The notes beneath the pieces are model-generated. The model was not told the DNA's origin, did no database searches, and saw only the letters and a program-made list of their open reading frames with translations. From NCBI GenBank assembly GCA_944325765.1, contig CALVBH010000017.1:1-63827 (forward strand): DNA of 63,827 bases, in the 5' to 3' direction. Shown piece by piece: positions 23,982-30,001 of this stretch. Position 1 is the first letter of the stretch; each line of letters opens with the position of its first letter. Both the position numbers and the translations under genes were made by a program. This stretch comes from an uncultured Bacteroidales bacterium (lineage in GTDB: Bacteria > Bacteroidota > Bacteroidia > Bacteroidales > UBA932).

Positions 23982-26645
23982 ATGATGAAAGACTTATATC
24001 TGAAATCCGCGTGCATCGCTGCAGCCCTGATCGGCTGGACCGCCTGCGTCGACACCTCCGGACTGGAGGACAGACTCGACTCACTCGAGGACAGAGTCGA
24101 CGCTATCGAAAAGAAGGTGGCGCAGATAAACGGGAATACGGCAGCCGTGTACGCCCTGCACCAGGAAGGACTTCTGGTTATGGACGTGCAGGCCTATGAC
24201 AACAATACTGCATACAGGCTCGAAATGAGTGACGGAAATTCGATAACTGTATACGTGGCTCAGGACGGTACAGGCATAACTCCGGTCATAGGTCTGGATC
24301 AGGAAGGGAACTGGACGCTGACTATGTTCGAAGGAGACGAACCGGTCATCATCGGCTCGGTCAGTGCAGCCAGCATTCCGCAGCTGCAGGTAAGTTCCGA
24401 GGGATACTGGCAGATAAAACTGCAGGAAGACTCCGAATGGGAGAATATCCTCGACAGCGACAGCCGGCCGATAGAAGCTACCGGCTCGAGCATTACCGAT
24501 TCCTTCTTCGAAGAAGTCGTTTATGACGAGGAAGAAAACACCATCGGAATCACCATGAAAGGCGGTGAAACTCTCTCGCTCGAAGTGCATAACGAACTTA
24601 TCACCATGGAAGTGGAAGGCTTCGATTTGGAGAATGGCGAGACCCTGTACAAAAATCAGGTTTGTCATTTCTACGCAACGTTTTCCGAAGACGTGGTGAA
24701 TGCCTACTCCAAACAGCCGGACGGCTGGAATGTGGAAATACGTCCGGAAGAAGAAGGCGGTCCGAGACATGTATTCATCGTCTCCGCCCCTGCCGAATGC
24801 ACCGAAGGCTCATACGAGGTAAAAGTATATCTCGAATCCGAAGAACACTATCTCAGGGTGTACAGGTTCACCTTCGATTACAGTACGGCGGACATAAACG
24901 CTTCCGACAGCGAAACCTGGAACAAATTCAAGAGCGGCGCTGACGACAACGTCCTTCTCGACTTTTCATACGCCGGGTACAAACACGGAGAGGTCGGTCC
25001 TCCGGATGTAACCGTCTACAAAACTGCCGACGGGCAATATGCGACCAACCTGTCCGGATATACCGTATACAACATAGAAGACTACGGTGCGGTCGGCACT
25101 GACGAAGAGTCTGACAGGCAGGCATTCCTCGATGCCGTAAGCGCCGCCCTCGGCACGACTTATACCAGCAACGAGAACGGCATCACTTTCAATCCGCCCA
25201 AGGGCGACAATGCCAACGCGATAGTATACATCCCGGAAGGCAACTTCATCCTCCACTCCGAGGAAGACAATATCCCCGATGACTCATACGAAGAAAACGC
25301 ATACTCCCAGACCATCATCATCAGGGCGAGCAACTTCATACTGAAAGGCGCGGACCGCACAAAATCCAGAATAATAATGAAGTCGCCGCTCCTCCCGTCC
25401 GGACCGAACGGGAAGAAAGGAGTGGATGCGTCGCGCCTGCTCTACGCATCTCCCGATATGATTCAGATCAAGCACAATACCGGAGTCGAATACAAGAATG
25501 TCCTGGCCAGTGTCACCGGCGATTCTCCGAAAGGATCCTTCGAAGTCACGGTCGGAAGCACGGCAGGTCTTGCGCCCGGACAGTGGGTATGCCTGTACAT
25601 GGCTCCGAACCCTTCTGATGAAGCAGTGTCTGCCGAACTGGATCCTCACGAGCCCGACGGTCCTGCCGCGGGGAACTGGGCCATCGCAAAAAATGGAGTG
25701 ACCGTAGAAGACTTCCATCAGATAAAGTCTGTCAGCGGAAACAGGGTGACATTCCATGAACCGCTGATGCATGAAGTATGCGCCGATTTCGGATGGACCA
25801 TACTGAACTATAAATACTACCAGAACAACGGTATCGAAGATCTGACATTCGTCGGAGATGCAAAGGAAGACTTCGTACACCATGCTTCCTGGCAGGATGA
25901 CGGCGGATACAAACCTGTCAGTATGACCAGAATGGTAAACTCCTGGATGCGCCGCGTGGATTTCGAAAGCGTGAGCGAGGCCTGCTCCATCATTTCCAGC
26001 GCGAACGTATCCGTATTCGACAGCCATATTTCCGGCAAGAGAGGACACTCGTCCATCCGGTCTCAGGGTTCGTCCAGAGTCTTTATCGGCAAGGTCACTG
26101 ACAACGCTTACGGCAAACTTGCCGGCCCTAACGGACAAAGTCAGGGCACAGGCAATGCTGACAATACCGGACAGTACCATGCCACCGGAGTATCGAAACT
26201 CAGCATGGGCGCAGTCCTCTGGAACAACGTATGGGGAGACGACAGCTGCTTCGAATCCCACGCCTCGCAGCCACGCGCCACACTGGTGGACATCTGCAAG
26301 GGCGGATTCATGAGATACAGACAGGGCGGAGACGAAACCCAGGTTCCGAACCACCTGAACGACCTGACCATCTGGAATTTCGAAGCAACAAATGTGGACA
26401 ACATCGCTCTGGACCTCGGAGCCGGAGCCAAGTTCATCTGGTGGGACGCTGCATCGAGATGGTGGAAAATACTTCCTCCGGTAATAGTCGGATTCCATGG
26501 GCAGCCGGTAACTTTCGATGAAAGTCCGGAACAGATAAAGGTTCTGGAAAGCAACGGCAATGCCGTCACACCGAACTCACTGTACGAAGCACAGTTGATA
26601 AACAGGCTCGGATACGTCCCTGCATGGCTTCAAATGTTGAAATAA
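23982..26645 (+). CDS. DUF4988 + DUF4955-like beta-helix lipoprotein (candidate PL29-type lyase)
   Basis: An 887-residue product. A lipoprotein leader (ALIGWTACVD) is followed by a short heptad coiled coil (LEDRLDSLEDRVDAIEKKV, residues ~29-47), the hallmark of DUF4988, then beta repeats of the GITPVIGLDQEGNWTL type. From about 360 it turns into a right-handed parallel beta helix: YNIEDYGAVGTDEESDRQAF, IVYIPEGNFIL, then rungs to about 830. This matches DUF4955-like proteins. Beta-helix enzymes in this PUL position may be lyases; I recall that the PL29 founder BT3328 comes from the B. thetaiotaomicron chondroitin PUL, but homology must be aligned. Function is not proven; a surface glycan binder is the alternative. 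Confidence 0.75.
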   Translation: MMKDLYLKSACIAAALIGWTACVDTSGLEDRLDSLEDRVDAIEKKVAQINGNTAAVYALHQEGLLVMDVQAYDNNTAYRLEMSDGNSITVYVAQDGTGITPVIGLDQEGNWTLTMFEGDEPVIIGSVSAASIPQLQVSSEGYWQIKLQEDSEWENILDSDSRPIEATGSSITDSFFEEVVYDEEENTIGITMKGGETLSLEVHNELITMEVEGFDLENGETLYKNQVCHFYATFSEDVVNAYSKQPDGWNVEIRPEEEGGPRHVFIVSAPAECTEGSYEVKVYLESEEHYLRVYRFTFDYSTADINASDSETWNKFKSGADDNVLLDFSYAGYKHGEVGPPDVTVYKTADGQYATNLSGYTVYNIEDYGAVGTDEESDRQAFLDAVSAALGTTYTSNENGITFNPPKGDNANAIVYIPEGNFILHSEEDNIPDDSYEENAYSQTIIIRASNFILKGADRTKSRIIMKSPLLPSGPNGKKGVDASRLLYASPDMIQIKHNTGVEYKNVLASVTGDSPKGSFEVTVGSTAGLAPGQWVCLYMAPNPSDEAVSAELDPHEPDGPAAGNWAIAKNGVTVEDFHQIKSVSGNRVTFHEPLMHEVCADFGWTILNYKYYQNNGIEDLTFVGDAKEDFVHHASWQDDGGYKPVSMTRMVNSWMRRVDFESVSEACSIISSANVSVFDSHISGKRGHSSIRSQGSSRVFIGKVTDNAYGKLAGPNGQSQGTGNADNTGQYHATGVSKLSMGAVLWNNVWGDDSCFESHASQPRATLVDICKGGFMRYRQGGDETQVPNHLNDLTIWNFEATNVDNIALDLGAGAKFIWWDAASRWWKILPPVIVGFHGQPVTFDESPEQIKVLESNGNAVTPNSLYEAQLINRLGYVPAWLQMLK

Positions 26646-26661
26646 TAAAACCATTAACTAT

Positions 26662-29034
26662 ATGAAACTGAAATCTAACATATTCGCCAAATGGGCAGGC
26701 ATCATCGCCGGATGCGCATCGGTAATCGCCTGCTCCGATCTCAGCGAACTCGAAGAAAGAGTGGACGACCTCGACAGCCGGGTCACCGCATTGGAGACAC
26801 AGGTCGAGAATCTGAACACCAGCATAGAAGCGATACAGGCTATCGCCGAGGCAGGCAATGTAATAACAGGCATAACTGAAAACAACGGAGAATACACCAT
26901 CACCACTTCTGACGGAAAGACCTACACGCTCAAACAGGGAGAATCCGGCAAGACCCCGCAGATAGGCATAAACGAAGACGGGAACTGGCAGGTCAGATAT
27001 GACAACGGCGACGGTACCTGGACTGACTGGACTGTAATCAATGTGGGAGACAGCGATACCCCGGCAAGTGCCGTAGCAGTAGTCCCGCAGTTCAGGGTGA
27101 ATGACGAAGGGAACTGGGAAATCAGCACCAACGGAGGAGTAAATTTTAACCCTGTCTACAAAGAGGGAACCGAAGATCCTGTTCCTGCGACAGGTGATTC
27201 CGGCTCCGACATCTTCAAGAGTGTCACATACTCCCCTGAAGACGGTCTGCTCCATATAGTAATGCATGACGATACGGAACTCGACGTACTCGTGGTTTCA
27301 GACTTCGGCTGCTCCATCTGGAACGAAGCAGGTACAGAAGTGATTGACTACGACACTCCGGTTTCCGTCCCAGTAAATACGACCGTAAGGTTCACGGTAA
27401 AGACCACCAACGTAACCGCTCTCGACATCGAGGCTCCTTCTGGCTGGGCAACCGTGATGGGAGACATCGATGCATCAGGCATCGCTACACTGGAAGTGAC
27501 AGCCCCGGACAAGGCCGAATCCGTAGAACTGACCAAAATCACATCCAATTCAAAACGGGATGTGACCATACATGCCACGAACAAGGACGGCAAGTCCACA
27601 TTCGCAAAAATCCAGGTACGCGCGGTAGCCGGCGACATACCGGAAGTGACAGTCACGGCAGCCGAAACCCAGGGCTTCAACATACTCACGTTCAGTTTCG
27701 CTGATGCCCAGCACCTGACATCATACAGATACCTCCTCTACAAGGCCGGTACTATGGAGCCGGGAGAATCGGCTTTCCCTGCATCGAGTGAAATCAACAT
27801 AGCGGATGCCTCCGATATCGACGATCTCGAAATCAGCAAAACTGCAGACGGGGCCGCTCTCGAATTCGGCACCGATTACGTCCTCTATGTACTGCCTGTC
27901 AATACTACCTCAGCAGGAATCACTACCGGCAACATCATCAAGGTCGAGGCAAGCACACGCACCCCTGAGAAGTACTCCGACCTTTACGAAGCCGGCATCG
28001 ACTTCACCATAGGGGATGTTACCATCAACAAGACCACTTACGGTGAAGCTATTGAAGTCACATCGGCAAATGCTTCTATTACAAACAATAAGACCGGTGA
28101 CACAAATGGAATGGCAGTTTACTTCGTCAATTCAGATGCCAATGCGAAATTTAATGTTACAAACGGAATCAATACGATGTTGATCATCGGCAATGATCTG
28201 GACGAGAAGAGCCCGTTGACGGTAAGCAGCAGAATCTCCCTGAACCAAGGCGCAGACAATACAGGCGGACAATTCTTATGCTATAACCTGTCAGTGGATA
28301 TGACCGGCTTCGATAATTACCATATGTATATGACGGCAAACGGGACGTATAGCTATGCAGGTTTTGTCGGCTGCGATATCCACCTTTCAACATACGCTAT
28401 GTTCGGAGGGTTCAATTCCGCACGTAAACTTGATGAAATCAGTTTTGACAGCTGTAATTTCAATGTAAGTCGTTTGACGAGCCAGACTGTTCTGATAAAT
28501 CCTGGCAGCACCCAAAACGTTTCTATCGGAACGATATCATTTACCAACAATATCGTTTATTCGACAGCAGAAACAGGGAAAGCAGATTTCAGAATACTGT
28601 TAGGCTCTTACCCTATTGTTGACGAGGTTATTCTGAGAAACAACACCTTCATCAATGTATGGCACGGCAATGGAAGTGCAACACCGGCATTCTTCGGATA
28701 CCAGACACTAGCGAAAGTAGAAGCAGAAAACAACTTGTTCTGGACTGATAAGACATTCTCCAACAACTTTACCGTATTCAGATTTCCAACTGGGGCCGGA
28801 AACCACCCGGACGGAGACATATGCAGGGACAATGTCATCTACTGTCCGAATGTCGGGACAAACAATTTCTGGATGTTCTTTAACAACATCAATACTGTCA
28901 TTGATAATGGATTCACTGACGCCAAAGAAATAAGAAGGATAACAGACAATCCGTATGAAGGCGGAGAGTTCATCCTGGAGGACGCAGTATTCGTTCCGAA
29001 CTCAACTTACAGCTCGTACGGAGCAACACGATAG
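26662..29034 (+). CDS. DUF4988 lipoprotein with beta-helix (DUF4957/DUF5123-like) C-terminus
   Basis: A 790-residue product. Lipobox ASVIACSD; coiled coil ELEERVDDLDSRVTALETQV at about 27-50; two beta units of the type GKTPQIGINEDGNWQV; Ig-like and FN3-like segments to about 440; then a beta helix (from ~450) with repeated ISFDSCNFNV and VILRNNTFINV rungs. The N-terminal third is a paralogue of the preceding gene's. The last kilobase is much more AT-rich than the rest (about 40 % against 57 % GC in sampled 60-base blocks), which suggests that module was acquired separately. Likely a surface glycan-binding or glycan-acting protein closing the operon; no catalytic residues recognised. Confidence 0.7.
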   Translation: MKLKSNIFAKWAGIIAGCASVIACSDLSELEERVDDLDSRVTALETQVENLNTSIEAIQAIAEAGNVITGITENNGEYTITTSDGKTYTLKQGESGKTPQIGINEDGNWQVRYDNGDGTWTDWTVINVGDSDTPASAVAVVPQFRVNDEGNWEISTNGGVNFNPVYKEGTEDPVPATGDSGSDIFKSVTYSPEDGLLHIVMHDDTELDVLVVSDFGCSIWNEAGTEVIDYDTPVSVPVNTTVRFTVKTTNVTALDIEAPSGWATVMGDIDASGIATLEVTAPDKAESVELTKITSNSKRDVTIHATNKDGKSTFAKIQVRAVAGDIPEVTVTAAETQGFNILTFSFADAQHLTSYRYLLYKAGTMEPGESAFPASSEINIADASDIDDLEISKTADGAALEFGTDYVLYVLPVNTTSAGITTGNIIKVEASTRTPEKYSDLYEAGIDFTIGDVTINKTTYGEAIEVTSANASITNNKTGDTNGMAVYFVNSDANAKFNVTNGINTMLIIGNDLDEKSPLTVSSRISLNQGADNTGGQFLCYNLSVDMTGFDNYHMYMTANGTYSYAGFVGCDIHLSTYAMFGGFNSARKLDEISFDSCNFNVSRLTSQTVLINPGSTQNVSIGTISFTNNIVYSTAETGKADFRILLGSYPIVDEVILRNNTFINVWHGNGSATPAFFGYQTLAKVEAENNLFWTDKTFSNNFTVFRFPTGAGNHPDGDICRDNVIYCPNVGTNNFWMFFNNINTVIDNGFTDAKEIRRITDNPYEGGEFILEDAVFVPNSTYSSYGATR

Positions 29035-29050
29035 CAACTCTCTGCATAAT

Positions 29051-29090
29051 AAAAAACATCCACGGTACCAATGTATCGTGGATGTTTTTT
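29051..29090 (+). terminator. Terminator of the plus PUL operon
   Basis: AAAAAACATCCACG (29051-29064) pairs perfectly with CGTGGATGTTTTTT (29077-29090), with four more pairs inside. The A/T tails make a classic intrinsic terminator 17 bases after the last stop. Confidence 0.92.
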
Positions 29091-29109
29091 ATATCATTGA
29101 CAGAATGCA

Positions 29110-29197
29110 AACTGCGGAGGCGGGAGGACAGCAACGAGCACTGTTGATTTCCGTCAGGAAATTGTAGTCTGTGCGAGCGTTGTCCTCCCGTTTCCGC
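29110..29197. repeat. Structured extragenic repeat, copy A
   Basis: Starts AACTGCGGA and folds into one long hairpin. A 17-pair outer stem (29114-29130 with 29181-29197, including two G-U pairs) is followed by AACG/CGTT and GCAC/GTGC pairs and an inner hairpin ATTTCC-GTCA-GGAAAT. It is 72/74 identical in its core to copy B, 129 bp downstream, and the differences keep base pairing. With copy B and two flanking terminators it fills the 368-bp gap between the PUL and ompH. No gene is supported here. Confidence 0.85.
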
Positions 29198-29233
29198 CAG
29201 GATGACACTGGACAGAAAGACATTACACAAGAT

Positions 29234-29326
29234 AACTGCGGAAAGGAGACAGGAGGACAGCAGCGAGCACTGTTGATTTCCGTCAGGAAATTGTAGTCTG
29301 TGCGAGCGTTGTCCTCCCGTCTCCGA
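29234..29326. repeat. Structured extragenic repeat, copy B
   Basis: Same architecture as copy A. The outer stem is GGAGGACA/TGTCCTCC (29252-29259 with 29310-29317) extended, after one mismatch, by GGAGAC/GTCTCC (29245-29250 with 29319-29324). Inner stems and the GTCA loop are identical to copy A. Flanking bases differ from copy A but still pair. Both copies lie in the convergent gap between two terminators, the usual site of REP/BIME-like elements. Confidence 0.85.
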
Positions 29327-29348: not shown

Positions 29349-29382
29349 AGCGTCACAAACGGTTTTTCCCGTTTGTGACGCT
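29349..29382 (-). terminator. Terminator of the ompH operon
   Basis: AGCGTCACAAACGG (29349-29362) pairs perfectly with CCGTTTGTGACGCT (29369-29382). On the minus strand it is followed by TTTTCATTTATGG, 20 bases beyond the ompH stop. Confidence 0.88.
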
Positions 29383-29402: not shown

Positions 29403-29969
29403 CTACTGTTGCTGAGCCTGGGCTGCAGCCTGACGGGCCGCCATAACTGACTCGATGGTCTTGTCAGCCGGGATATTCAGAGCCGTGCGTGCTTCAGGAG
29501 TCAGATCGATGCTCTGTGCGGTATCGATATAAAGAAGCGACGAAGCATCGTAAACGTAAATGACGCCCTTCTCCTTGGCCAGATTCCTTACCACATCCTG
29601 AGCCTTCTGATAAATAGGAGCCATCAGGGTATTCTGGAGCTGGCTCATATCCTGCTGGATAGCCTGCTCGAACTCCTGTATCCTGTTCTGAATCTCACCC
29701 AGTTCTCTCTGTTTGCTTTCCCTCACGGCAGGAGTCCAGGATTCCTGCTTCTGGTTGAACTGATCGTATTTGGACTGGAACTCAGCCACCATACTCGAAT
29801 AAGTTTCCTGAGCCTCGGTATTGGCAGCTTCAAGCTGAACCATAGCCGAATCAGCCTCAGGCATCAACTGGACCAGTTCACTGAAATTCACATGTGCAAA
29901 CTTCGTCTGTGCCGTAGCAGCAAGACCGAACGAAAACAGAACTGCTGCGATCAAATAGATTCTTTTCAT
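29403..29969 (-). CDS. OmpH/Skp-family periplasmic chaperone
   Basis: A 188-residue product from the ATG at 29969 (MKRIYLIAAVLFSFGLAATAQ, signal peptide); the upstream in-frame Met is rejected. After a first beta strand (KFAHVNFSELVQLMPEADSA) comes a long charged helical hairpin and a closing domain (GVIYVYDASSLLYID), the Skp jellyfish plan. The C-terminus is rich in Q and A. Skp-like proteins hold outer-membrane proteins in the periplasm for BamA, whose gene is directly upstream. Last gene of the nadK-uppS-bamA-ompH operon. Confidence 0.93.
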   Translation of the reverse strand: MKRIYLIAAVLFSFGLAATAQTKFAHVNFSELVQLMPEADSAMVQLEAANTEAQETYSSMVAEFQSKYDQFNQKQESWTPAVRESKQRELGEIQNRIQEFEQAIQQDMSQLQNTLMAPIYQKAQDVVRNLAKEKGVIYVYDASSLLYIDTAQSIDLTPEARTALNIPADKTIESVMAARQAAAQAQQQ

Positions 29970-30001
29970 ATTTTCAATGTTTAAAATTAATTCCACCCGG
30001 C

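Follow-up and report, generated by a model that had tools for sequence, protein, structure and literature searches.

Two groups of described systems come closest to the hairpin repeats analysed in this work. The first comprises the REP elements with their TnpAREP/RAYT proteins, including in Bacteroidetes the TnpAREP subclass 2.6, for which the accessible part of the report gives "atypical secondary structures" and the protein motif YIH[QN]NP (PMC6006769). The second comprises inverted repeats altered by template switching, a process reported, in the available portions of the papers, to create and maintain hairpins, to homogenise their arms and to invert loops or spacers (PMC8794818, PMC8604942); loop inversions with compensatory changes are described there as very rare in rRNA (PMC8794818). 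Among the titles and abstract openings of the open-access papers retrieved by our searches, we found no description of a hairpin family of the present type in Bacteroidales.

The repeat pair in the window

The window, i.e. the whole stretch of 63,827 nucleotides that was analysed, carries two direct repeats of 81 nt, named A and B, with a start spacing of 129 nt. They are flanked by two convergent genes, at 26662-29034 (+ strand) and 29403-29996 (- strand). The two adjacent large genes at 23982-29034 each carry an N-terminal DUF4988 domain. In the following list + is the strand reading GCAC-TGTTGA...TTGTA, referred to below as the tip strand.

29049..29092, no strand assigned: terminator-like inverted repeat 3' of the + strand gene ending at 29034, a neighbour outside the hairpin family
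29116..29196, + strand: hairpin repeat copy A, outer arms and tip (covariance model, 96.4 bits)
29138..29174, + strand: tip of copy A
29245..29325, + strand: hairpin repeat copy B, 95% identical to A (covariance model, 93.9 bits)
29267..29303, + strand: tip of copy B, identical to the tip of copy A
29349..29382, no strand assigned: terminator-like inverted repeat 3' of the - strand OmpH-like gene, also a neighbour outside the hairpin family

The original prediction described this pair as twin structured repeats whose differences all keep base pairing. Recounting gave the claimed 72 identities out of 74 in the cores, folding of the + strand gave one single unbranched hairpin for each copy with a common GTCA loop, and the two inverted repeats on either side do resemble terminators. 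Also correct is the replacement of the G-U pairs 29120/29191 and 29119/29192 of copy A by A-U and G-C, respectively, in copy B. The claimed change from A-U to G-U at 29134/29180 was not recovered, as in the lowest-energy folds 29134 is unpaired in A and the corresponding 29263 in B pairs with 29307, and the statement that all differences keep pairing overlooked a G to A change at 29122/29251 which turns the G-C pair with 29189 into A.C. All differences between A and B are one-sided and there are no two-sided compensations. The observation is confirmed in part; genuine covariation is visible across the family only and is absent between A and B.

On the + strand the folding energy is -52.4 kcal/mol for A and -47.6 kcal/mol for B (z -7.1 each; none of 200 shuffles as good), and on the - strand -39.6 and -41.3 kcal/mol (z -4.9 and -5.7; better than all 200 shuffles). 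Across the window Rfam returned only tRNA at gathering score, leaving the hairpins unmatched; the matches below threshold were to microRNA families and one snoRNA family.

Family size, anatomy and covariation

BLAST with the repeat gave 11 matches in its own genome. The covariance model gave 20 rows, two of which are the reverse strand of counted copies, resulting in 18 places; further copies in the host genome, proposed earlier as a check, do exist. Ten other places share 66-118 bp with one own-genome place at 79-86% identity, tip included. In the GTDB genome collection the pattern GCACTGTTGA-N(8-30)-TTGTA-N(2-4)-CTGTGC matched 29 stretches, 27 of them from Bacteroidales, one of the matching assemblies being Candidatus Cryptobacteroides merdigallinarum; the two remaining matches (L031, L039) did not give a hairpin on folding and were rejected as chance. 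No stretch of the viral contigs matched. In the window's genus the exact tip pattern was present in 8 of 300 genomes (backward control 0) and a relaxed one in 13 of 400 (backward control once in each of two genomes), one relaxed match (G190:C100) being discarded as chance as judged by its letters. Both patterns miss variant tips, and BLAST gives extra places in G115, G190 and G242. A covariance model search of 30 relatives yielded no matches, which is weak evidence given that just 139 candidates per genome were scored.

On the tip strand the order of elements is outer arm, GCAC, TGTTGA, short inner stem, loop, TTGTA plus 2-3 nt, CTGTGC and outer arm, with a GA/GA internal loop often found between the outer arm and GCAC. 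The outer arm sequences are unrelated among many copies.

Covariation is commonly regarded as the best evidence of a functional RNA fold. Over 48 distinct aligned rows 94.6% of the cells were paired, and the covariation score, on an alignment which had been fitted to the model, was 0.662 against a shuffled mean of 0.208 (0/500 as high) and at most 0.160 in slid controls. Variation on both sides occurs in 14/14 outer pairs and 4/7 inner pairs. There is hardly any variation in the GCAC/GTGC pairs and in the inner stem's three outer pairs, a constancy of the tip that is partly by construction, since rows outside the own genome came mostly via the exact tip pattern; own-genome rows were recovered by the model and variant tips occur (L022, L029). 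The outer stem cells include 570 Watson-Crick, 30 G-T, 16 A-C and 46 other states, and the inner variable cells 191 Watson-Crick and one G-T (n=192). With 32 G-T versus 19 A-C (p = 0.09) strand asymmetry is not clear. The outer stems of 46 copies also have 77 other mismatches and 42 gaps, many of which lie, by eye, in the recurring GA/GA internal loop.

Significant covariation is thus present across the family (0.66 vs 0.21), as had been anticipated. This does not imply selection on the fold, as G-U states are rare and at one site, described below, the tip is inverted within the same outer arms. These two traits suggest template switching between the arms, not RNA selection.

Genomic placement and orthologous sites

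Placement was scored for 37 copies passing an 8-of-10 pairing filter, 35 of which lie outside ORFs. Fifteen have neighbours that both run opposite to the tip strand and two have neighbours that both run with it (p = 0.002), twelve lie between convergent and two between divergent genes, two are inside ORFs, and four have a single flank. Closest to the copy is a gene end 3' of the tip in 21 cases, one 5' of the tip in 4 (p = 0.0009 for 21 vs 4), and in another 6 a gene start. GC skew, used as a probe of a replication-strand cause for this orientation, was negative at 20 of 32, which is no clear sign of such a cause. For stop-codon distance 29 copies were used, weak stems being excluded; in 15 of them the 3'-side gene has its stop codon at most 10 nt from the stem or overlapping it. 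The upstream genes appear to be assorted household and surface genes with no evident common function, and among 297 ORFs near 52 hairpins no specific partner gene was found in the recurring families listed, which were common ones or orthologous neighbourhoods (gene names by eye in both cases). A T-run (at least 5 T in the 8 nt past the foot) is found in 2/46 copies on the tip strand and in 0/46 on the gene-sense strand.

In the own genome the copies of one subfamily adjoin another dispersed repeat, of the CTCGGGATGACA type (L014, L016, L017, L018, L020, L022, L023, L025), and at L014 and L027 a repeat of the CTCGGGATGACA kind apparently provides the stop codon of the preceding gene. At L020 (1500-2100) a short ORF that resembles a fragment of a recombination-promoting nuclease has a hairpin on either side, the second of them with a variant tip.

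Orthologous sites were compared. At a conserved convergent gene pair two species, G248 and G193, have the same outer arm sequence, except for the innermost few pairs, and a 40-nt tip which is exactly reverse-complemented between them. At the same site in G053 and G273, 21 bp separate the stop codons of the two convergent genes and a hairpin is lacking, this empty site having no palindrome resembling the G193/G248 arms, while G126 has a longer, tipless spacer. After a gene that is presumably thioesterase-like, the hairpins L042 and L051 share their arms and L045 has different arms with the tip kept; 20 further orthologues of this site are without the tip, and 11 of these 20 have, by eye, a plain hairpin of other sequence within about 30 nt past the stop codon. 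At another site common to G273 and G248 the arms differ and the G248 tip is a variant. A search in G053 for a recent empty counterpart of the G273 copy was unsuccessful, as the region fails to line up, and no filled and empty pair was found that is close enough to reveal a target-site duplication.

Some loci carry tandem partial units, composed of a half-tip and a 5' arm at L034, and at L271 (G190:C65) of a tip and a 3' arm, four times, with one single 5' arm; further partial units are found at L269, and also at L059 and L057/L044. These arrays suggest slippage and strand switching of replication at the hairpins. One candidate considered, that arms are made at insertion with one arm within an older local array, was suggested by L059 and L018 and was rejected on account of the half-tips in the units of L034 and L271/L269. 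Half-tips inside units, with arrays on either side, fit slippage once the hairpin existed; arms made at insertion are retained solely in the apex-alone variant given below.

The same data may be read as a structured RNA of the 3' untranslated region, that is a gene-sense hairpin following the stop codon, whose internal loop would be read by a protein or ribonuclease and which would stabilise, end or regulate the mRNA. The vicinity of the stop codons, the dominance of one orientation (21 vs 4; 15 vs 2), the rarity between divergent genes (2/37), the retention of tips at orthologous gene ends despite replaced arms and the strong covariation would all be accounted for. Read in gene sense, however, the wobble count is reversed (19 G-U vs 32 A-C, p = 0.09), and the gene-sense strand of A and B is the one that folds worse (-39.6/-41.3 vs -52.4/-47.6 kcal/mol). 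The inverted tip, the lack of an evident common function upstream and the absence of an Rfam match to the hairpins at gathering score in the window also speak against this explanation, which we consider rather unlikely.

RAYT proteins, interpretation and known systems

A RAYT-like transposase had been proposed as a possible partner. Within the genus Y1_Tnp proteins are frequent, being found in 26 of 38 chosen genomes. One RAYT subfamily (at least 55% identity over its length), first met in G242, has close members among 300 genomes in G000 and G193 only (389 and 388 bits; next 210) and among 80 other genomes, a set independent of the query choice, in G338 and G361 only (385 and 338; next 161). 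It is present in 5/13 hairpin genomes and 0/367 others, eight hairpin genomes having no close member (Fisher p = 4.7e-4 in the first set, query genome excluded, and 0.003 in the second). On a gene tree of 30 genomes chosen by similarity to G248, seven hairpin genomes cluster (3 changes, shuffled mean 6.4, 1/500 as low), so that the association may reflect shared ancestry. The G242 protein scores 25.1 with Pfam PF01797, just above the cut-off of 23, and 26.1 with NCBIfam REP_Tyr_transpos, beneath the cut-off of 80. In G242 the RAYT gene is preceded, at a distance of about 275 nt, by a hairpin with a variant tip; no tip hairpin is found near the RAYT genes of the other four genomes, two of the five genes being close to a contig end. 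The proposed partnership is in line with the co-occurrence of the subfamily and the hairpins, and less so with their positions, a tip hairpin being near one gene of five and other arrays adjoining. By eye, all five close RAYTs are next to repeated hairpin-like units whose sequence differs by genome (L151/L168, L155/L170, L141/L169, L272, L273), a REPtron-like, fast-changing arrangement.

The interpretation we favour, with about even confidence, is that bacteria of the Cryptobacteroides type carry a dispersed, REP-like hairpin element of DNA, in which stem pairing would be maintained by template switching and not by RNA selection. The conserved apex (GCAC-TGTTGA / TTGTA-CTGTGC around the short inner stem) would most likely serve for the recognition of folded single-stranded DNA by a protein, and the outer stem, having no conserved sequence, would drift as intergenic DNA does. 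Template switching during replication would re-copy one arm off the other, so that both sides change together, and might also flip the apex, as in the one flip observed; stalling at the hairpin could give rise to the adjoining tandem half-units. Hairpin copies accumulate directly past stop codons, and the leading guess for the origin of new ones is the action in trans of a single-strand (Y1/RAYT) transposase. The orientation bias relative to genes, as expected of a transcribed element, is a point against a DNA element, and the other arrays adjoining close RAYTs, together with the 8/13 hairpin genomes without one, are points against the RAYT link.

In a doubtful variant the apex alone would be mobile, with a Y1-type transposase recognising and moving the tip of about 40 nt and the stem being rebuilt by fold-back copying of host sequence wherever the tip lands, so that every copy would have a different stem of its own making. 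If true, the family would represent a REP of a new kind, whose structure is copied without its stem sequence being inherited.

Transcription terminators with a special apex, or with an apex invaded by a small element, would agree with the plain hairpins past the same gene's stop codon in 11 of the 20 tipless orthologues. T-runs are nearly absent, though, A and B sit beyond two ordinary terminator-like repeats, and the 21-bp empty site has no palindrome bearing these arms; insertion of the tip in a pre-existing terminator was rejected also because the tipless orthologues show no common arm sequence. We regard terminators as improbable. Equally improbable is a non-mobile chromosomal site for binding or recombination through the extruded tip: it would explain a conserved tip with free arms and tips at orthologous places, but not the patchy distribution (13/400 genomes), the flanks shared by dispersed copies or the lack of a specific neighbour. 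A chance hairpin duplicated locally would fit the direct duplication of A and B, and is ruled out, with virtually no credence left to it, by the 18 own-genome places and the copies across many other genomes.

If the RAYT link of the favoured DNA element is true, the range of REP element forms widens. The family combines very strong covariation (0/500 shuffles) with indications that the copying of DNA could bring it about, namely few wobble states and a tip flipped within the same outer arms, and represents a natural bacterial test case for RNA selection versus template switching.

With regard to known systems, the original suggestion of a REP/BIME- or MITE-like family is supported in part: further copies, covariation and co-occurrence of a RAYT subfamily agree with it, and the standard REP foot tag is lacking. 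The multi-copy intergenic hairpin typical of REP/BIME is present (18 own-genome places; 35/37 copies outside ORFs). The REP tag GTAG/GTGG/CGTC is absent from the 5' foot of the stem (0/46), its reverse complement is found at the 3' foot in 2/46, and 17/46 copies have GTAG within the tip; since this tag was tested and not found, REP membership is not claimed. Close inverted pairs, as in REPIN/BIME, are not among the pairs and arrays encountered, those in the window and at L020, L059 and L271 being all direct, and MITE-like conserved terminal inverted repeats are missing, the outer arms being unrelated among many copies.

As far as the accessible text of the reports goes, REP elements with TnpAREP/RAYT resemble the present family in being small imperfect intergenic DNA hairpins of patchy occurrence, mostly flanked by convergent or co-directional genes, and in that some of the genomes encode a Y1 transposase relative (PMC6006769, PMC3733652). 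Unlike them, the family has no foot tag, occupies 18 places only, combines a conserved apex with a free outer stem, and the RAYT of its genomes adjoins arrays other than the tip hairpins. Subclass 2.6, in the part of the report available, shares the phylum, the lack of a GT[AG]G tag and copies elsewhere in the genome, but its motif is YIH[QN]NP where the RAYT found here has YVLRNP, and its structures are described as weaker whereas, comparing by description, the present hairpins are very stable (PMC6006769). The sponge and fungal mitochondrial hairpin elements, likened by description from parts of the reports, are also small, dispersed and intergenic, but lie in organelle genomes (PMC2800124, PMC7218506). 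The template-switch pattern, in which the arms change on both sides and the sequence they enclose is inverted, is found here, with one inversion only; the available portions of the papers describe the same two traits in rRNA, microRNA and yeast genes, whereas here they concern a dispersed family with an enclosed sequence of 40 nt (PMC8794818, PMC8604942). Overall, the best reading is a REP-like DNA hairpin of unusual build, which its free outer stem and conserved apex would set apart from REP as described.
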